Shown piece after piece: positions 3 through 61,391 of a stretch of DNA of 64,000 bases. This DNA comes from Thermosynechococcus sp. (GTDB taxonomy: Bacteria; Cyanobacteriota; Cyanobacteriia; Thermosynechococcales; Thermosynechococcaceae): assembly GCF_025999095.1 (NCBI RefSeq), contig NZ_AP024678.1:1643527-1707526 (forward strand), read 5' to 3'. Made by a program: the position numbers and the translations under genes. Within the stretch, counting starts at the first letter, position 1. Every line of letters begins with the position of its first letter. The notes under the pieces were generated by a model that saw only the letters and a list, made by a program, of their open reading frames with translations, was not told the origin of the DNA and did no database searches.

Positions 3-1733
3 GCTGGACTTGATGATGAAATGACCATTGCCAATCCCCAAGTCCATAGCATGGGCATGAGTGCCGTTGGCTCAGAGGCCGCAGTGATGACCGATGCTGG
101 CACTGAGACCTTTGCGGTTCTACCGGATGAATTTGATCTCAACCAGCAAAGTCTTGAGGAGTTGGCTGATTTTAGCCTCGATCTCAGCCAAAGCACGGCC
201 AGCCATGCCGAAGCGCCTGCCTCGAAAGAAAAACAACATCTCTCAACCTTTACTGAGCAAGCGTCGGTTGCCAGTGTCGCTGCTTCACCCTCTACGGCTT
301 CACCTGTAGTTGAGGGCAAAGCAACGTCCACCCCAGCCGCAGCCGCAGGCTCCTTAGAGCAACAAACCATTACCGCAGCGCTGTTAACAGGTGTTCTTTC
401 GGCCTTAGCCGCTGGCGCTGTCAGTGTGGGTTTTCGTACCCCGCTGCCTGTTCCTTTGATCAGTACTGCTGCTACCGGTCTGATTGCCGGTGGGGCAGCC
501 TATGGCTTAGGACGGCGCACTGTCAGTCGCATCAAACACTTCTGTACAGATTTGCAGGCCCAGTGTAACGCCGTGATTGCCGGTGACATGACAGCCCGAA
601 TGCCAGTGGGCAGTGATGATGAGCTGGGACTTCTCGCCCAAAGCTTTAACCAGATGACGGACACCATCCAGCAAATTACCGCGGATGCTCAGAGAAAAGC
701 TGAGGAAATCGAGCGGCAGCGGGATGACCTGCAACGCCAAGTGATCCGACTCCTCGATGATGTGGAGGGGGCTGCCCGCGGGGACCTGACCGTACAAGCG
801 GAAGTGACAGCGGACGTACTCGGAGCAGTGGCTGACTCCTTTAACCTGACAATTCACAACCTGCGGACGATTGTGCAACAGGTGAAAATTGCCGCCCAGC
901 AGGTGAGTCGTGGTGCCGCAGAAAACGAAACCTTCGCCCGTAGTCTCTCAGCAGATGCCCTGCGGCAAGCGGAGGAGCTAGCCGTCACCCTGAACTCGGT
1001 ACAGATGATGACCAATGCGATTCAGCGGGTGGCCGAAAGTGCCCAAGAAGCCAATGAGGTGGCCCGCAATGCCTCAGAAACAGCCCTCCGTGGTGGTGAG
1101 GCAGTGGAACGCACGGTGGCAGGTATTTTGCAGATTCGGGAAACAGTAGCGGAAACCACCCGCAAGGTGAAGCGCCTAGCGGAATCTTCCCAAGAGATTG
1201 CCAAGATTGTGGGTGTGATCTCGTCGATCGCCAACCGCACAAACCTGTTGGCGCTAAACGCCAGTATTGAGGCCGCACGGGCCGGGGAAGCAGGTCGGGG
1301 GTTTGCGGTGGTGGCCGATGAGGTGCGGCAACTGGCAGACCGAGCAGCCAAAGCCTCCAAGGAAATTGAGCAGATTGTCTTGCAAATTCAAAGCGAAACT
1401 GGCGCGGTGATGACCGCTATGGAAGAAGGGACGCAGCAGGTGATTGAGGGGACGAAGCGGGCAGAGCAAGCCAAGCACGCCCTTGAGGACATCATCCAGG
1501 TGTCGTCGCAAATTGATACCCTGGTGCGCTCGATTACCAACGCCACAGTGGAACAAACCGAATCGGCACGAGCGATGGCTCAGGTGATGCAATCCATTGA
1601 GCTGACAGCGCAGGCCACTTCTCAGGAGGCACAGCGGGTGTCCGACTCATTGCAAGGTCTAGTGAGTGTGGCACGCAACTTGCAGGCATCGGTGGAACGA
1701 TTCCGCGTTGAAAATACTGAAGATCAAGCCTAA
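3..1733 (+). CDS. Methyl-accepting chemotaxis protein, PilJ type (5' end probably outside window)
   Basis: Membrane chemoreceptor that would control the CheA kinase encoded next. Counted from the ATG at 21, two hydrophobic stretches lie at about residues 115-165, followed by a HAMP region (about 168-220), a second HAMP-like segment (about 240-290), and a long coiled signalling domain. The conserved hairpin tip is visible ([19 protein letters not shown], about residues 403-421). The frame stays open to base 3 and reads AGLDDE before the ATG at 21. That ATG has no Shine-Dalgarno sequence, so the true start is probably upstream of the window. The N-terminal part is acidic and low in complexity, as often seen in cyanobacterial PilJ proteins. 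Family assignment is firm; ligand and exact start are unknown. Confidence 0.88.
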
Positions 1734-1751
1734 GCAATCCGGGAGGGGGCT

Positions 1752-4700
1752 ATGCAAAGCGATCAACAAAAGCGCATTCTCGGCTACTTCATTGAGGAAG
1801 CGCAGGAACACCTGACCACCATTGAAGATAGTTTGATGAATCTCCAGCAGGTAGTCAATGACCCTGAGGCGATGAGTGAAATGTTTCGGGCAGCCCACTC
1901 CGTCAAAGGGGGAGCGGCCATGCTCGGACTCCACAGTATTCAGCACACCGCCCACAAGCTGGAGGACTACTTCAAAATCCTACGGGAGCATCCCGTCACC
2001 GTGGATGAAACCCTAGAGCAACTGTTTTTGCAAGCCTTTGATGCCCTGCGGGAACTCCTCGATGAATTGCAAGGCCCCTTTGGTTTGACGGAGGAGACAG
2101 CAACCGCAACCCTGAACCGGGTGGAGCCAGTCTTTAGTCAACTGCAAGCTCACTTGAGCCACTTGACCCAAGGAGGAGAGGCGCCGCCTCCTGTAACTGC
2201 TGCTTCTTCCCCCGTGGCCGAACCCATTGCGCCAGCGGTACAACCCGTTGCTGATTCAAGCTACCGCCTAGTCTTTCAAACGGAGGTCCCCGATCGCCTG
2301 CGGGCAATGTTGCAGCTCTTTAAGCAGACCGATTCGCCCCAAGTGCGGCAAGCATTGGCGGAGGCCTGTTCTAATTTGGGTCAATTGGGGGAAACCTTTG
2401 CCCTGCCCCAGTGGGTTGAATTGCTGGCGATCGCTCAACAGGCGGTGAGTAACACGGCTCAGCCCCTCACGGCTTTGGCACCAGTGGTGATCAAAGAGAT
2501 TATGGCAGCTCGCGACTTGGTGCTCAATGGTCAAGGCAGTGCGATTCGTCCCAGTGACAGTTTAGTGGCGCTTCAACCCCCTGTGATTGAGGAAACTGCG
2601 GCGGTTGTTCCCGAAGGGCCAGAGCCTTCGGTCTTGGCATCAGCCCCCGTGACCGAATCACCGGCACCCCTTGAAATGGCCTCTGAGGTTGCTCCGCCAG
2701 AGGTGGCTGCCCCTGAAGAAGTTGAGATTTCCGAGCCAATGAGTGGCGGCCATGGTGTCACTGTTTTTGAGGAGGAAAGTAGCACTGATTTCCAAGAATT
2801 GAGTGACATTTTTAGTGATCCAACGGCGCTGCCGACGGAGTGGCTAGAGGAGACCCTTGAGGAGAATTTGGCCAATTTAGGACCGGGCGATGAAGCGGCC
2901 TTTGATGAGGAGATTTCCGACTTTTTGAACATGATGGCTTCTGAGGAGTTGCCTGAGGCAGAATCCAGCCTTGAGGCCATCCTCGATGAAATTCAGGAAC
3001 TTTCTGATGAGCAGCTCTCTGCAGAAGGAGGGGAGGCATCCCTTGATGATCTCATGTCGCCAGCGATCGCCGAAAGCATAGCTGAAGCCCTTGAGGCGCC
3101 CCTGACACCTGACCGTCCTACCGAGGAGAGGGCAGCCGCAGAGCCCGCCGAACTCGATCTGAGTGCATTCCTTGAACAATTCACCGAGGAAGCCCCCTCA
3201 GGGATGGCAGCTTTTGATGAGGCAGTGGCTTCCCTAGAAGAGTTTTGGGGTGAGGTGGAAACCCCCGCGGCTCCCGATCTGCTTCCCCTAGAAGAGGATT
3301 CTGAAATCCCTGCCTTGAGTGATGTTGCTGAGGATGTGGCTGAGTTCCTCGAAGAGGTACCGGGTCTCAATGATGTCCTAGAAAACTTGGTTGTGGATAA
3401 TGGGGCGGAAGAAGCCCTTTCAGAATTTATTACCCCAGCAAGCACTGACGATCCTTGGGCGGAAACGCCATCCTCCTTGGAGGCGCCAGCGATCGCCGAG
3501 CCAAGTATGCCGGAAGTCACAGCGGCAAATATGACTGAACCCGAAGCACTCGTGGAGGAGGTCCTAGCCTCTGCCGAGACGGAGGGTATCGCCGAGCTAG
3601 AATCCCTCTTGGAGGCGTCTGTACCCTCTGCTGAGGCGGCGAGCATTGCTGAGCCAGAAGCAGTGGTGAATGACGCCACCGCCCCTGCCACCCCCGAAAG
3701 CGTCCTGGAGGAATTAGAGGGGTTAATTGAGCAAAGTACAACCCCTACAACCCCACCCGAGGCTGCCCCATTCCACGAATTGGATCAGCTTTTGGAGACG
3801 GCGGCAGCACCGACATCGGCCTTTGAGGATCTAGAGCAACTCCTGGGGCAAGCCACCCCTGGGGCACCCACACCACCGCCACCAACAGCAACGCCTTCCA
3901 CGGCTGAGGATAGTTTTGCCGATCTAGAGAAATTAATTCCCCAACCCGCAGGGAGGAGTGAAAAGGCAGCCACCCCGCGGCGAACGGCAGCAGGGGCAAA
4001 AGGCGGCTCCTTGGTGGAACAAACCATGCGTGTACCGGTGCGCCACCTCGATACCCTGAGTAACCTCGTTGGGGAGTTGGTGGTCAACCGCAATAGCCTC
4101 GAAGACACCCAAGAACGTCTGCGGCAGTTCCTCGATAACTTGCTCTACCAAGTCCAACAACTGGGGGAGGTCAGCCAACAAATGCAGGACCTCTACGAGC
4201 GATCGCTCCTAGAGAGTTCACTGTTGGGCGCGACAACTGCACGGGCAGCCAATGGCCAAGGAGAACAGAGCACCCACGCCACAGGTGTCGAGTTTGATGC
4301 CTTGGAAATGGATCGCTTTACCGGCTTCCACACCCTTTCTCAGGAGGTGATCGAGCGGATTGTGCGGGTGCGGGAGGCCGCCGACGATATCCAGTACGTA
4401 ATTGATGAAGTGGAGCAGGTGGCCCGGCAGTTTCGTCAAGTCACGACCCAAGTCCAAGAGGGCTTGAGCCGCTCCCGAATGGTCCCCTTCCGTGAAATGT
4501 CTTCCCGCTTACCGGGAGCTGTGCGCCGCGTTGCCAGTACCATCGGCAAACAAGTAGAACTCAAGATTGAGGGAGAAGATACCCTCATTGACAAGGGGAT
4601 CCTTGAAAAACTCTTTGACCCAATGACCCACCTGATCAATAACGCTGTCTATCACGGTATTGAAATGCCCGAAGAGCGGCGGCGATTGGGCAAACCTGAA

Positions 4701-5951
4701 AAAGGCCTGATTCGCGTACGGGCCTTCTATCAAGGTAGTCAAGCGATTATCTCCGTCAGTGACGATGGGGCGGGAATTGACCCAGAACGGGTAAAACGCA
4801 AGGCGATCGAGAAGGGTCTCCTGAAGGAGGCCGATGCCCCCAACCTTTCCCGCCAAGAGGTCTATGCCTTCCTCTTCCAATCGGGATTTAGCACCAAAGA
4901 TCAAGCGGATGCCCTGGCGGGTCGCGGTGTGGGTATGGATGTGGTGCGCAAAAATCTGGAGGACATTCGCGGCACCATTAACATTGACTCCACGGTAGGC
5001 AAAGGCACGACATTTACCATCCGCTTGCCCCTGACCCTGAGCATTACCAAAGCCCTCTGTTGCATTGATAACCACTGCCGCATTGCCTTCCCCATTGACG
5101 GCGTGGAAGATATGCTGGATATTCCCCAAGAGCGCATCCAAACCCGAGAGGATGGTCAGCGCGTCCTCTCGTGGCGCGATCGCCAGCTGCCGGTGCGTAA
5201 ACTCGGGGATTTGCTGAAGTACAGCCGCCAGATCAGCCGTAGCAATGTCTATGGCGGTAGTACCCAAGATGATGGCATGGTCTCGATTGTCGTGCTGCGC
5301 AGTGGCGACGATCTCGTAGCCATGGAGGTGGATCAGGTCATTGGTGAACAGGAAATCGTGATCAAGCAGTTGTCGGGGCCGGTACCGAAGCCGGTGGGGG
5401 TTGCTGGGGTCACTGTCCAAGGGGATGGCCGCGCGATGGCGATCGCTGACGTGCTGGAAATTATTGACCTGTCCCTAGGACGCATGGATCGCGAGTGGCG
5501 CGGGTTTGGCCACACCATGGAGGTTGCCGAGCCAGAGGAAGCCTCGGAGCCCCTAGTGCTGATCATCGACGACTCAATTACGGTGCGGGAGTTGCTCTCA
5601 ATGACCTTTACGCGGGCAGGCTACCGCGTCGAGCAGGCCCGCGATGGTCAAGATGCCTGGGAAAAACTGCGCTCTGGCTTGCCCTGTGACCTGGTGTTCT
5701 GTGACATTGAGATGCCCCGCATGGATGGTCTGGAGTTGCTCTCGCGGATTCAAAAGGATCCTAAGCTCAACCATCTGCCGATCGCCATGCTCACCTCCCG
5801 GGGCGCCGATCGCCACCGCAGAATGGCCGCCCAACTGGGGGCACGGGCCTACTTTACCAAGCCCTACCTGGAGGAGCAATTACTGGATGCGGCGGCGCGC
5901 CTCCTCAAGGGTGAAGTTCTGGTGCAACAGGAGCCGACACCTACCCCATGA
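1752..5951 (+). CDS. Hybrid CheA-type histidine kinase with C-terminal receiver (PilL-like)
   Basis: Kinase of a type IV pilus/phototaxis-like chemosensory pathway. The order is: N-terminal Hpt domain with phospho-acceptor His49 (AAHSVKGG); an unusually long acidic Ala/Glu/Pro-rich linker (about residues 280-730); P3 dimerisation helices; HATPase domain with N box (HLINNAVYHG) and G boxes (DDGAGID, GRGVGMDVV); CheW-like domain; and a receiver domain with DDS at its start, acceptor Asp in FCDIEMPRMDG and Lys in FTKPY. The start lies 18 bases after the receptor stop, behind a GGGAGGGGG ribosome site. It is far longer than E. coli CheA because of the linker and receiver. The next gene overlaps it by ATGA, so they are probably cotranscribed. 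Confidence 0.95.
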   Translation: MQSDQQKRILGYFIEEAQEHLTTIEDSLMNLQQVVNDPEAMSEMFRAAHSVKGGAAMLGLHSIQHTAHKLEDYFKILREHPVTVDETLEQLFLQAFDALRELLDELQGPFGLTEETATATLNRVEPVFSQLQAHLSHLTQGGEAPPPVTAASSPVAEPIAPAVQPVADSSYRLVFQTEVPDRLRAMLQLFKQTDSPQVRQALAEACSNLGQLGETFALPQWVELLAIAQQAVSNTAQPLTALAPVVIKEIMAARDLVLNGQGSAIRPSDSLVALQPPVIEETAAVVPEGPEPSVLASAPVTESPAPLEMASEVAPPEVAAPEEVEISEPMSGGHGVTVFEEESSTDFQELSDIFSDPTALPTEWLEETLEENLANLGPGDEAAFDEEISDFLNMMASEELPEAESSLEAILDEIQELSDEQLSAEGGEASLDDLMSPAIAESIAEALEAPLTPDRPTEERAAAEPAELDLSAFLEQFTEEAPSGMAAFDEAVASLEEFWGEVETPAAPDLLPLEEDSEIPALSDVAEDVAEFLEEVPGLNDVLENLVVDNGAEEALSEFITPASTDDPWAETPSSLEAPAIAEPSMPEVTAANMTEPEALVEEVLASAETEGIAELESLLEASVPSAEAASIAEPEAVVNDATAPATPESVLEELEGLIEQSTTPTTPPEAAPFHELDQLLETAAAPTSAFEDLEQLLGQATPGAPTPPPPTATPSTAEDSFADLEKLIPQPAGRSEKAATPRRTAAGAKGGSLVEQTMRVPVRHLDTLSNLVGELVVNRNSLEDTQERLRQFLDNLLYQVQQLGEVSQQMQDLYERSLLESSLLGATTARAANGQGEQSTHATGVEFDALEMDRFTGFHTLSQEVIERIVRVREAADDIQYVIDEVEQVARQFRQVTTQVQEGLSRSRMVPFREMSSRLPGAVRRVASTIGKQVELKIEGEDTLIDKGILEKLFDPMTHLINNAVYHGIEMPEERRRLGKPEKGLIRVRAFYQGSQAIISVSDDGAGIDPERVKRKAIEKGLLKEADAPNLSRQEVYAFLFQSGFSTKDQADALAGRGVGMDVVRKNLEDIRGTINIDSTVGKGTTFTIRLPLTLSITKALCCIDNHCRIAFPIDGVEDMLDIPQERIQTREDGQRVLSWRDRQLPVRKLGDLLKYSRQISRSNVYGGSTQDDGMVSIVVLRSGDDLVAMEVDQVIGEQEIVIKQLSGPVPKPVGVAGVTVQGDGRAMAIADVLEIIDLSLGRMDREWRGFGHTMEVAEPEEASEPLVLIIDDSITVRELLSMTFTRAGYRVEQARDGQDAWEKLRSGLPCDLVFCDIEMPRMDGLELLSRIQKDPKLNHLPIAMLTSRGADRHRRMAAQLGARAYFTKPYLEEQLLDAAARLLKGEVLVQQEPTPTP

Positions 5952-56923: not shown

Positions 56924-58090
56924 ATGACCCAAGCAAATGTACTTGACGTTTACGACCCCACAACAGCCCCCCTTGAAGATGAGGTGGCTCTGCTCAGTGA
57001 CTATGGGCTTGAGACCGTAGAGATTGAGGAAGAAGAGAGCGAAGACTTTGAGGAGGTCAGCGATGATCTCGACGACAAGCCTACAAAAGGTCGTGCCAGC
57101 CGACGACGGACCCAAGTCAAGAAGAAACATTACACCGAGGACTCGATTCGCCTCTATTTGCAAGAAATTGGCCGCATTCGTCTGTTGCGTGCCGATGAGG
57201 AAATTGAACTGGCTCGTAAAATTGCCGACCTCCTAGAAATGGAGCGGGTGCGCGATCGCCTATGCCAAGAACTGGGCTGTACGCCTGAAGAACTAGAGCG
57301 CAATCCTGAACCCTGGGCCAAAGAACTGGGGATGACGGTGCCGGCATTTCGCCATCGTCTTTTTGTCGGTCGCAAGGCCAAGGAAAAGATGGTGCAGTCC
57401 AACCTGCGACTGGTGGTGTCAATCGCCAAAAAATACATGAACCGGGGGCTATCCTTTCAGGACTTGATTCAAGAGGGCAGCCTAGGGCTCATCCGCGCTG
57501 CTGAGAAATTTGATCACGAAAAGGGCTATAAATTTTCCACCTACGCGACATGGTGGATTCGCCAAGCCATTACCCGCGCCATTGCCGATCAATCCCGCAC
57601 CATTCGTCTGCCTGTGCACCTGTACGAAACCATTTCACGGATTAAGAAAACCACCAAACTCCTCTCCCAGGAAATGGGGCGCAAACCTACCGAAGAGGAA
57701 ATTGCCGATCGCATGGAAATGACCATTGAAAAACTGCGCTTCATTGCCAAATCGGCCCAACTCCCCATCTCCCTAGAAACCCCCATCGGTAAAGAAGAGG
57801 ATTCCCGTCTCGGGGACTTTATTGAATCCGACGGTGAAACGCCTGAAGATCAAGTGTCGAAGCACCTGCTACGCGAAGATTTAGAAACGGTATTGTGCAC
57901 CCTTAGCCCCCGCGAGCGGGATGTGCTAAAACTGCGGTATGGCTTGGACGATGGTCGCATGAAAACCTTAGAGGAAATTGGTCAACTCTTTAACGTAACC
58001 CGTGAGCGCATTCGCCAAATTGAGGCCAAGGCCCTGCGGAAGCTGCGCCATCCCAACCGCAACAGTGTCCTCAAGGAATACATTCGCTAA
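56924..58090 (+). CDS. sigA: Primary (group 1) RNA polymerase sigma factor
   Basis: Main housekeeping sigma-70 factor. Acidic N-terminus, region 1.2 ([16 protein letters not shown]), region 2 ([36 protein letters not shown]), region 3, and region 4 with [16 protein letters not shown] and [19 protein letters not shown]. The 388-residue form starts at ATG 56924 ([12 protein letters not shown]), matching cyanobacterial SigA; a GTG at 56834 would add 30 unrelated residues. Followed by a short exported-protein gene 10 bases after its stop. Confidence 0.95.
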
Positions 58091-58100
58091 GGAGTCGTTT

Positions 58101-58433
58101 ATGTTGCGTCCCCTCATTGCCCTGACCGTTGGTCTGTCTGCCACCCTGGTGGCAATGCCGCAAGCCAGCCGTGCTCAATCCTGCGCTTACGCCAAAGGGT
58201 TCAGTCAAAGTCTGAGCAATACTGCGTTCTTCGATAGCAGCAAGCTACCGATCGCCCTTGGACTGGGTGTGGGTGCGATTACAGCAGGGGCAGTGGGGGT
58301 GACCCTCTGGCAACGGCGGCCGCAAACTGATGCCCGGACCTCTGCTTCTGGTGCTGCCTCTTTAGAACTGCCGGTGGTCTTACCAGAGTCTGACGGTGCA
58401 GAGCGTTGCCAAGATGTAACACCGATTGTGTAG
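58101..58433 (+). CDS. Small exported or membrane protein of unknown function
   Basis: Not recognised. The 110 residues begin with a signal peptide (MLRPLIALTVGLSATLVAMP, likely cut after SRAQS), then one more hydrophobic helix (about residues 50-70, LPIALGLGVGAITAGAVGVTL) and a Ser/Ala/Glu-rich tail. Cysteines at about 27 and 105. It follows sigA with a 10-base gap and GGAG ribosome site, so it should share the sigA transcript, which ends at the terminator just downstream. Confidence 0.75.
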   Translation: MLRPLIALTVGLSATLVAMPQASRAQSCAYAKGFSQSLSNTAFFDSSKLPIALGLGVGAITAGAVGVTLWQRRPQTDARTSASGAASLELPVVLPESDGAERCQDVTPIV

Positions 58434-58799
58434 TCAGGGATTGCAACCAATCAAATGATCGCCCCTGGGCGGGGCAATCAGGAGGCTCCTTAGCTGTTGC
58501 TGCGTGGCACAGTCGGGAGCCTCCTTTTCTTTACCACTACTGGAATTAAAACCATCGGTATCCGCTCAACTGTTGTTCTAACGTGAGAGCATCCCTGGGC
58601 AGGTGCTTAACTATCTGTCGGTGCATTGATTGCTAAAAAAACGGATCAATCAAGTCACTGCATCTAAAGACTGCTATCACGCTTAACTTCTTAATGTTGA
58701 TTTAAACAGCGCTTTATTGCTTCTTTAACGCCAACCAATATTCTTACTTCAGAATAAACAACAGTCCCGTGCTGCGGACTTAGTGGTGGAGGAGTGAAT
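58434..58799. other. Intergenic region after the sigA operon
   Basis: About 365 bases. It holds the terminator at 58481-58528. The remainder is AT-rich leader before the surface-protein gene; no gene or RNA fold is recognised. Confidence 0.55.
58481..58528 (+). terminator. Rho-independent terminator of the sigA operon
   Basis: GGAGGCTCC pairs perfectly with GGAGCCTCC across a 26-base loop, followed by TTTTCTTT. Located 48 bases after the small exported-protein stop. Confidence 0.88.
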
Positions 58800-61391
58800 A
58801 TGCATTCTTGGCGGAGGCTTTTAGGGAGCTGCTTACTTGGCTTAGGTGTGATTTTCGGATTCAGCGATGTAGCCATTAGTCAATCCGCAGCAACTGAGAT
58901 TTTAGGGCCTCGAATTCAGCCCCGTGGAACTATTCGTTTCAACAGTGAAGGGGCTGGCTTTGACAATTTCCTTAGTGCAGAGACATTTATTCCTCTCTTT
59001 CAAAAACCAGGTGCTAGTCTTGGTTTTTTTGAAGGTAAACTCTTCATACCCACATCCAATACAGCCCTAGCTTACAACCTGACCCTGGGCTACCGAGCGT
59101 TGATAGCCAATCAAACATTTTCTGTGGGGGGCTACTTATCCTATGACTTTCGCAACACAGGAAACGCTGGCTTTGACCAGCTGGGGGTAGGTTTAGAGCT
59201 CTTGGGCAATGTTGATGTTCGGATCAACGGTTACATTCCCCTAGGAAATCGGCAAGTTCTCCTTAATCAAGCAGTCGGAGCAGTTGGCACTATTCAAAAT
59301 AACCAGATTCTCCTCAATCGCAATCGCCTTTTCCAAGAAGCGCTTACGGGCTTTGACATGGAAGTGGGTACCCCTTTGGTTCCAATAGGTCAAGATTATC
59401 TGCGGGGCTACGCAGGCTTGTACTACTACAGTGGCGAGAGGATTGCTGACTTTGTTGGCGTCCGTGCACGTTTATCTGTGCGCCCCATTGAATACCTCAG
59501 CTTAAGTGCAACTGTTCAAAATGATGAGCGCTTTGGTACCCAGGCTTGGTTTGGAATTGGATTATCTTTTCCGGGGGTGGCTGGCAATCGTCGCCGTGCT
59601 CCTGAGCGGGGGCAAAACATTGCAGTCCGCCTAGGCGAGTCCCCGGAGCGTATCAGCTTTATTACTGTTGATAACGAAGGGGTGCAGGATCAAGTTGCGG
59701 CAATTAATCCTGCCACCGGTCAGCCCTATCGAGTTTTTGCAGTTGATACTGGGGCGGGTAGTGCTGCTCGGATTAATGATTTACCGCTTGCTCAAAATGA
59801 CATTGTCTTGGTTGGTGTTAATGATAGAGATGGCAATACTGCTGGTCAAGGTGCAATTAATCTTCTAGATGGAGTTCAACTCCTTTCTACAACTGTGGAT
59901 CGGCAACTGCCAAGTCCACTGGGAACGATTACCATTCCAGCACTCACGCCGAGTACCCAAAGGCCTATCATCGCTACCACTATTACTTTAGCTAGGAACA
60001 ATACCATTGATGGTTTCAATATTCAACCGCCCGCTGGCCAACCTGCAATCATTGGTAATAACATCAATCCAGCTCGTATTATTAACAATCAAATTACAAC
60101 AATCAATGCAGCTGGAATTGATATAACAACTGCTCAATCTCCTATTGTGCGTGGTAACACGGTTACAATTACGAGTACAACTGTGCCTGCCTTTAACCGC
60201 CGTGGGATTAGCATAACTGAAAGTACTGACGCTGTGATTGAAAATAACATTGTTAATGGTGCCATTGGCGAGGGAATTGGTCTAGATAATGCCCTTGGGA
60301 ATGTGATAATTCGTGGTAACACCGTGGCCAATATTGGTCAGACACCAACAGATACCAATCTCGAAGCAGGTATCTTCATTCGCAATAATCGAGGTAACGC
60401 CAATATTACGATTGAGGGTAACGTTACTGAAAACAACCTGACGCCCACCAATCGTGTGGATGGCATTGAGTTCAATCTTTGTCGAGGAAATAGCTTCAAC
60501 GTCCTTGACCGCTTCACTGACAATCAGTTTGCGAATTGCACCGCTCCCGCAAGTGCAACGGTTACCGTGCGGAACAATCAGATTCGTAATATTGGCACGG
60601 GTACTGATGGCAGCGATGGTATTGACTTCAATATTGGAGATGGCGCTAACCTCACAGCTATCTTAGAGGGTAACGTTGTAAACAGTATTTCTGATGCAGG
60701 CATAACCTTTGACATTGTAAGCAGTGCTACCCCAATTGCAAGTCCCACCGCAAACATCACAATTCGCAATAATCAGATAAGCAACATTCTCAATGATGAT
60801 GCGATTACTCTAGAGTCAAATAGCGCGGGACAAGTGGTGTTGAACATTGAGAATAATGTTATGAGTGGTATTGGCGGTGGTAATGATGGCATTGACATTG
60901 AGTTCACCACGATTGCTGCTAGTCCAACACCAGCACGGGTGAGAATTGTTGGGAATGACCTGTCTAATGTCAGCGATCGCGGGATAGAGATTGACACCAC
61001 TAACAATGCTGCCTTGCAACTTGAAGTCAGCAATAACCGTATCCAAACAACCGCTGGCGGTGAAGCAATGCGACTGCGGGCTCAGAACACTTCTCGTCTC
61101 AATGCCACTGTCAACAACAACACCCTCACTCAAGGAAACCCTGCTACACGGAGCTTGGAACTGCGGGCTGATAACAATGCAACACTGTGTGCGAACGTAT
61201 TTGGCAATATCCAAACAAGTGGTGCCGGTTTCCGATTATTGCAGGGTGGCACTTCCAGTTTACGTATTGTGAATTCTCTTAATTTAGGCCCGAACAACGG
61301 TGGTGTGACGATTACTACAACAGGGACAGTAACGAATATCACAGCTGCCACATTCAATGCTGCACCCCCTGGCGGTTGTACATTCCCCTAG
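58800..61391 (+). CDS. Surface protein: N-terminal beta-barrel-like domain plus right-handed beta-helix
   Basis: An 863-residue exported protein. Signal peptide (SCLLGLGVIFGFSDVAIS) is followed by about 240 residues of alternating aromatic/glycine strands typical of an outer-membrane barrel, similar to the inverse-autotransporter beta domain (LTLGYRALIANQTFSVGGYL; LGVGLELLGNVDVRINGYIP). Residues from about 390 to 840 are parallel beta-helix repeats (NNTIDGFNIQ, IRGNTVANIG, ITIRNNQISNIL). Four cysteines sit in the helix part. The ATG at 58800 has GGAGGAG at proper distance; the GTG at 58794 does not. It probably exposes the beta-helix at the cell surface; ligand or substrate unknown. Confidence 0.82.
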   Translation: MHSWRRLLGSCLLGLGVIFGFSDVAISQSAATEILGPRIQPRGTIRFNSEGAGFDNFLSAETFIPLFQKPGASLGFFEGKLFIPTSNTALAYNLTLGYRALIANQTFSVGGYLSYDFRNTGNAGFDQLGVGLELLGNVDVRINGYIPLGNRQVLLNQAVGAVGTIQNNQILLNRNRLFQEALTGFDMEVGTPLVPIGQDYLRGYAGLYYYSGERIADFVGVRARLSVRPIEYLSLSATVQNDERFGTQAWFGIGLSFPGVAGNRRRAPERGQNIAVRLGESPERISFITVDNEGVQDQVAAINPATGQPYRVFAVDTGAGSAARINDLPLAQNDIVLVGVNDRDGNTAGQGAINLLDGVQLLSTTVDRQLPSPLGTITIPALTPSTQRPIIATTITLARNNTIDGFNIQPPAGQPAIIGNNINPARIINNQITTINAAGIDITTAQSPIVRGNTVTITSTTVPAFNRRGISITESTDAVIENNIVNGAIGEGIGLDNALGNVIIRGNTVANIGQTPTDTNLEAGIFIRNNRGNANITIEGNVTENNLTPTNRVDGIEFNLCRGNSFNVLDRFTDNQFANCTAPASATVTVRNNQIRNIGTGTDGSDGIDFNIGDGANLTAILEGNVVNSISDAGITFDIVSSATPIASPTANITIRNNQISNILNDDAITLESNSAGQVVLNIENNVMSGIGGGNDGIDIEFTTIAASPTPARVRIVGNDLSNVSDRGIEIDTTNNAALQLEVSNNRIQTTAGGEAMRLRAQNTSRLNATVNNNTLTQGNPATRSLELRADNNATLCANVFGNIQTSGAGFRLLQGGTSSLRIVNSLNLGPNNGGVTITTTGTVTNITAATFNAAPPGGCTFP

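Follow-up and report, generated by a model that had tools for sequence, protein, structure and literature searches.

The gene at positions 58800–61391 (plus strand) of the window, by which we mean the whole 64,000-nucleotide stretch of Thermosynechococcus sp. DNA that was analysed, probably encodes a type Ve inverse autotransporter with a beta-helix passenger, a surface-anchored stalk or adhesin that would be exported from its N to its C terminus. This reading builds on the gene itself, a barrel type recognised from predicted structure and family-level sequence, a beta-helix, a pattern of cysteines, sequence conservation, and the duplication of a large block among orthologs. N-to-C export and surface location are suggested by analogy with intimin, as described in excerpts of earlier work (PMC3467248, PMC13078405).

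Gene and domain order

The open reading frame is intact and undivided and comprises 863 codons from an ATG at 58800 or 865 codons from a GTG at 58794. The ATG was already given as the start in an initial annotation, whose coordinates are right because a GGAGGAG lies five bases ahead of that codon; residue numbers throughout are counted from the GTG, two codons further upstream. The gene is present as a single copy in its own genome (2.5 Mb, one contig), and the ortholog of a congener (G021) is an 865-aa frame with 86% identity to the window protein. Judged from sequence comparison, a chance origin of the layout is excluded because dN/dS is low within the genus and because other cyanobacteria have proteins built in this way too. 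The features of the locus, all on the plus strand, are as follows.

58035–58430 (+): small protein with a predicted signal peptide, between the sigma-factor gene and the window gene
58788–58794 (+): Shine-Dalgarno-like GGAGGAG, 5 nt 5' of the ATG (read by eye from the sequence)
58800–61391 (+): whole gene, 863 aa (ATG) or 865 aa (GTG) (open reading frame and G021 ortholog)
58800–58883 (+): predicted signal peptide with Arg-Arg and a hydrophobic stretch, residues 3 to ~30 (sequence; helix 6–20 of the model)
58923–59573 (+): predicted 12-stranded intimin-type beta-barrel, residues 44–260 (models, Foldseek, VIA-align; strands and loops assigned from DSSP)
59574–59666 (+): putative periplasmic helical plug (272–281) and a linker across the lumen, in which R279 and R286 are conserved (invariant columns, model, structural alignment)
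59667–59993 (+): predicted strand at the outer end of the linker (292–302) and N-terminal start of the beta-helix (model; V292 invariant)
59994–61187 (+): predicted right-handed parallel beta-helix passenger, residues 401–798 (Pfam PF13229, fold match)
60075–61100 (+): stretch matching a 342-aa (1026-bp) block, single copy here, approximate borders (ortholog comparison)
60480–60539 (+): Cys563 and Cys582 (CX18C) in a helix loop, candidate disulfide (cysteine pattern)
61134–61388 (+): C-terminal cap with Cys799 and Cys862 (codons 61188–61190 and 61377–61379), candidate disulfide (cysteine pattern, cap alignment)

The AlphaFold2 model of the window protein (17 aligned sequences; mean pLDDT 80.5, pTM 0.69) comprises a helix at residues 6–20, 14 DSSP strands between residues 44 and 260, a second helix (272–281), and a strand (292–302) that is followed by a long series of short strands up to residue ~840. 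A separate model of the barrel alone (mean pLDDT 79.6) agrees with the full model. Pfam recognises Beta_helix (PF13229) at residues 401–543 (E 1.8e-9) and otherwise yields a weak match to NosD below the cut-off, whereas the NCBIfam scan gave no match and a PDB search with the single sequence returned chance matches only; no ligand domain was recognised. Only about 14 residues separate the signal from the first strand, according to the model and Pfam, which leaves the protein without a periplasmic N-terminal domain. Pfam and the model thus place a signal, an N-terminal barrel, a linker, and a C-terminal passenger in inverted order.

The initial annotation had proposed a signal peptide (seen here as a hydrophobic N terminus) followed by a barrel and a beta-helix, without LysM; this order is borne out by the model and by Pfam, which found no LysM. 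Two of the checks it suggested also gave positive results: structure prediction produced a barrel closest to those of intimin and invasin, and relatives with the same order were found in other cyanobacteria, so that the likeness to an inverse autotransporter stands.

A predicted intimin-type barrel with a putative plug and linker

Foldseek searches of the PDB with the full model and with the barrel model returned the same top three structures, namely invasin (4e1t) and intimin (4e1s and 5g26), at E-values of 5e-9 to 3e-7 for the full model (next best 2e-4) and 4.5e-10 to 2.5e-8 for the barrel model (next best 5e-5). For VIA-align, the barrel was folded alone because the full model had listed beta-helix chains only. 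The same three chains aligned with the barrel model at Z 21.3–21.6 over 208–210 residues (2.8–3.0 Å), spanning model residues 16/17 to 261, the latter corresponding to protein residue 285, whereas the other 47 matches listed had Z-scores of at most 18.4 and ended at or before model residue 243. The alignment with intimin reaches chain residue 439, which lies inside the pore linker. In our reading, the 14 DSSP strands of the model would represent 12 membrane strands plus a hairpin (154–183) in extracellular loop 4; this stretch carries large insertions among the relatives.

At the sequence level, support for the barrel type comes from the family. For the window barrel itself, no match to Pfam IAT_beta (PF11924) reaches E ≤ 1, a threshold passed by 13 of the 18 aligned barrels (best E 4.3e-10); of the 17 full-length aligned proteins, 7 match at E ≤ 0.1. 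Matches above the curated cut-off occur in 3 of 28 genomes of the family, and two of them (G003:C196 and G005:C245) coincide with frames that are 33–35% identical to the window protein. When a profile of the 18 barrels (A2) was searched against solved chains at E ≤ 10, the single match was the barrel of invasin (E 0.012). Together, predicted structure and family-level sequence give good support to an inverse-autotransporter build of the protein.

The type Ve proteins intimin and invasin (4e1s, 5g26, 4e1t), which are the best structural match to the window protein among all solved chains, share with it an N-terminal signal and a C-terminal passenger and, if the model is correct, also a 12-stranded barrel, a periplasmic helical plug, and a pore linker with a conserved arginine. 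By contrast, their passenger consists of Ig-like domains with a lectin-like tip instead of a single beta-helix, and the window protein differs further by the absence of LysM or any other periplasmic domain and by a barrel below Pfam detection. A small periplasmic N-terminal domain, in some cases LysM, has been reported for homologs of intimin and invasin (excerpts of PMC3467248) but is not within the type Ve definition in the excerpts of PMC6555100, where an Ig-like or lectin-like passenger is typical of the type but not defining. The annotated inverse autotransporter adhesin YeeJ of Escherichia coli K-12 (NP_416485.5; IAT_beta at 125–400) likewise has its barrel first and a long passenger next, although this passenger is formed by Ig-like Big_1/Invasin_D3 repeats; the alignment of its single sequence with A2 by hhalign is colinear across the strands but weak and not significant (probability 0.5%, E 0.12).

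Excerpts of a recent mutagenesis study of intimin (PMC13078405) describe how a helical turn plugs the periplasmic mouth, how the linker (434–444), in which R434 is completely conserved, crosses the pore, and how loops 4 and 5 pair with a short strand (446–449) at its end. The helical plug and the linker through the barrel lumen are present in the window protein in the predicted model only (helix 272–281 and the alignment to intimin residue 439), where the helix directly follows the last strand; R279 and R286 are invariant, and a strand begins at the invariant V292. Because residue 285 lies opposite intimin residue 439, R279 would fall beside R434, and residues 292–293 would lie opposite 446–447, as calculated from the ends of the aligned ranges rather than from a residue alignment. 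A further invariant residue of the family, Gln129, aligns with an arginine of invasin in the A2–invasin alignment; it may, as a guess, occupy the position of R288 in the barrel of intimin, which is also called completely conserved (PMC13078405, excerpts). Such a replacement would count against the type Ve reading, as do the missing IAT_beta match of the window barrel, the non-significant alignment with YeeJ, and the absence of an N-terminal periplasmic domain.

Passenger, cap and occurrence of the gene

The best VIA-align matches of the helix region (Z 25–30) are the alginate epimerases AlgE6 and AlgE4 (Z 30), RbmB, a lyase of biofilm polysaccharide (Z 29), and phage tailspikes. Because the best fold matches are epimerase A-modules, RbmB, and tailspikes, the passenger is predicted to be a right-handed parallel beta-helix, in line with the Pfam Beta_helix match, which is found in 16 of the 17 aligned proteins including the window protein. 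The passenger differs from these proteins in that it shares 10–17% identity with them, is anchored by a barrel, and lacks recognised catalytic residues.

The length of the passenger varies within the genus. Five orthologs, that of the window included, comprise 865, 865, 892, 1234, and 1576 residues, and the length steps of 342 residues stem from tandem copies with a start-to-start spacing of 1026 bp, as determined by a repeat search. The block is present in three copies in G022, in two copies in G025, and once, without duplication, in the window gene; Tandem Repeats Finder, whose longest period is 500, found nothing. The block copies are 94–97% identical in both protein and DNA over the compared stretches, whereas orthologs of different species are 84–90% identical in the helix. 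Pairwise dN/dS ratios against four orthologs of the genus are 0.08–0.12 for the barrel, 0.08–0.24 for the helix, and 0.12–0.62 for the C-terminal cap; on these ratios, barrel and helix are both under purifying selection. The situation, with one, two, or three blocks in different genomes of the genus, may resemble that of the periscope proteins, a class that includes inverse autotransporters and in which stalk length is altered by near-identical tandem blocks (excerpts of PMC9704523). Their repeats, however, comprise ~50–165 residues (Ig-like, grasp, and helical bundles among them; same excerpts), whereas the block found here consists of 342 residues of beta-helix.

The passenger contains four cysteines (563, 582, 799, and 862); a fifth (C13) lies within the predicted signal peptide. 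The initial annotation was right about the four cysteines in the helix but had considered them unusual, whereas they are largely a conserved feature of the family. A C-terminal pair, with one cysteine within the last 10 residues and the other 45–115 residues from the end, is present in 28 of 32 complete relatives and absent from four (L029, L083, L085, and L095). These 32 remained after frames cut by the end of a locus, frames of at most 600 aa, and frames identical to another over their last 150 residues had been dropped; they are not independent of each other, so that the pattern is a statement of conservation rather than the outcome of 32 trials. The window protein has the pair but is not among the 32 (its locus copy is cut). 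The remainder of the 32 passengers contains 26 cysteines in 17,395 residues, a frequency at which a chance pair is expected in ~0.15% of proteins. The number of mid-passenger cysteines is even in all 32.

The surroundings of both C-terminal cysteines follow a common pattern in the alignment of the caps. A profile (A3) built from 18 of the 28 collected caps matched four places in 146 cyanobacterial genomes, all of them in genomes with already known barrel-helix frames; it added no new member and was not found on any other protein in these genomes. Its best match among solved structures (E 0.22) is not meaningful. The four passenger cysteines can be understood as the pairs 563/582 and 799/862, which are candidate disulfides, and the second of these may close a cystine cap at the tip. 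In intimin and invasin, a disulfide is located near the C terminus in the lectin-like tip.

Within the family, 11 of 29 genomes matched in a search with the whole protein (E 0.001). Among 386 sampled cyanobacterial genomes, the barrel profile matched 34 (1e-5), of which one half (17) encodes a long frame of ~700–1900 aa; the other 17 all belong to family f19 (genomes of 1.7–2.9 Mb) and encode short frames (at most 435 aa among those listed), often several per genome. When 16 of the long proteins were scanned, 13 passed the cut-off of Beta_helix, 8 that of IAT_beta, and 5 both, with IAT_beta always N-terminal in proteins where both domains matched; one further relative (L039) stems from a planctomycete assembly. 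The barrel-only relatives of f19 (L067–L079) occur in several copies per genome, some of them side by side, and two Scytonematopsis loci (L028 and L030) each contain two nearby barrel-first paralogs.

Excerpts of earlier work describe the cyanobacterial members of the intimin/invasin family as barrel only (Tsai et al. 2010, PMC3008723) and list 5 Prochlorales, 9 Synechococcus, Acaryochloris, and Microcoleus (Simm et al. 2015, PMC4365693). They belong to the same barrel superfamily and phylum, and the short frames of f19 fit this description, but the proteins of the 17 other genomes combine the barrel with a long passenger. A limited literature search of titles and abstract openings found no inverse autotransporter with a beta-helix, and the long cyanobacterial kind appears to be new relative to the descriptions in these excerpts.

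In the window, a sigma-70 gene (sigA-like) is followed by the small gene, the window gene, and a gene for a ferritin-like (Dps-type) protein. The small protein is also present in G020 and G028 and belongs to no Pfam family. Ten further genomes of the genus were compared, and five of them (G021–G025) carry the gene in full or near full length. The ortholog in G024 (L026 = G024:C57, a MAG) is split near residue 533 into two overlapping frames (2695–4398 and 4362–5372; 568 and 337 aa), which may represent a frameshift but is more likely a sequencing error because the coverage is 3x. In G028 (L100, G028:C1:620000-623500), only the first ~53 codons (~1336–1494) are left between the sigma-factor and ferritin-like genes, and in G020 (L101) the site holds an unrelated 403-aa frame (1316–2527, minus strand), which by eye looks like a PQQ-type sugar dehydrogenase. 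The two neighbouring genes stand apart in G019 and G026, and G027 lacks a sigma-factor match at the threshold used. Because it is full, a remnant, or replaced among these genomes, the gene is, on sequence grounds, an accessory one that has been acquired or lost at a constant position, which is common for surface proteins.

Function and export of the passenger

The fold matches leave room for a different function, in which the same export route delivers a surface-held enzyme (lyase, epimerase, or hydrolase) that remodels the polysaccharides of its own or neighbouring cells. Among solved beta-helices, those closest to the passenger are for the most part enzymes acting on sugars and tailspikes of phages, which supports such an enzyme and counts against a stalk or adhesin, but the composition of the passenger makes it unlikely. 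Residues 301–865 (565 residues) include no lysine, histidine, or tryptophan and a single tyrosine. The active site of alginate-epimerase-like enzymes comprises a Tyr/His/Asp/Lys set, for which this stretch has neither histidine nor lysine; YGFDPH, which we take to be the alginate epimerase motif, is absent from the window passenger. Ten polar columns after residue 300 are conserved in at least 14 of the 17 aligned proteins (six Asn, two Ser, one His, and one Tyr), and of the four that are not asparagine (H316, Y339, S365, and S385) the window protein retains S365 alone, a pattern more in keeping with a structural asparagine ladder than with a catalytic centre. Block duplication within the helix core is likewise easier to reconcile with a rod than with an active site. 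A polysaccharide enzyme of a known type is therefore less likely, since the passenger is without Lys, His, and Trp, although a mechanism based on Asp, Glu, and Arg alone may be conceivable. Of the two functions considered in the initial annotation, the adhesin is favoured and the polysaccharide-acting enzyme is less likely: tandem blocks, the small number of conserved polar columns other than asparagine, and the missing Lys, His, and Trp argue for a stalk or adhesin, whose adhesive role would still be an interpretation.

A barrel that acts as a pore or channel, with a beta-helix that remains in the periplasm and, for example, binds polysaccharides or gates the channel, is quite improbable. The next-best barrel matches include oligosaccharide porins (KdgM, NanC, and VhGalP; Z 16–18), and the weakly matching NosD profile is a periplasmic one; however, intimin and invasin are the sole matches among those listed whose alignment extends across plug and linker, and in the model the last strand is immediately followed by a helix, as it is in intimin. 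Without a pore linker, the beta-helix would stay inside, because the last strand of an even-stranded barrel ends in the periplasm; the case against a pore therefore rests on the position of the linker, which is a prediction. Beta-helical passengers are typical of type Va (excerpts of PMC6604945), but a classical type Va or a two-partner type Vb product whose order was misjudged is very improbable: in the window protein, as in those complete relatives that were examined, the barrel is at the N-terminal end, the model lacks the type Va layout of a C-terminal barrel and an N-terminal passenger, type Va barrels score lower in VIA-align, and no TPS or Autotransporter domain is among the Pfam matches listed.

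The scarcity of certain residues extends beyond the 565-residue stretch (window positions 59694–61388) that lacks Lys, His, and Trp. The longest run without these residues comprises 613 residues in the window protein but at most 134 in the others among the 30 Met-started frames of at least 250 aa in the window. The condition is nearly genus-wide, with 0, 0, 1, 0, and 0 lysines in the passengers of five genomes and no lysine and one histidine in the 1276-residue passenger of G022; protease resistance, heat, and packing are candidate reasons.

For an inverse autotransporter with a beta-helical stalk, the helical plug would shut the periplasmic mouth of the barrel while the linker rises through the pore. 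The passenger would exit as a hairpin with its N-terminal end leading and coil rung by rung into a right-handed beta-helix outside the cell, and its folding would pull out the remainder until the cystine-closed C-terminal cap (C799–C862) terminates the rod. The rod would stay attached and serve as a stalk or adhesin toward other cells, matrix, or sugar polymers, and its length would be altered in evolution by the addition of 342-residue helix blocks. On balance, it seems rather likely that this cyanobacterial type Ve system exports one continuous, cystine-capped beta-helix from N to C and changes its length in steps of 342 residues, as a barrel-first, beta-helical "periscope".

Excerpts of reviews associate beta-helical passengers with type Va and small globular repeats with type Ve (PMC6604945, PMC6555100), a pairing that is broken by a conserved group of cyanobacterial proteins in which a beta-helix passenger follows an intimin-type barrel. 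If this is true, one and the same fold would be exported from C to N in one class and from N to C here, and the opposite directions would therefore allow a direct test of whether vectorial folding of a beta-helix can act as a pulling force from either end. A heat-stable version from a hot-spring genus would be practical for such a test of folding force and for surface display.
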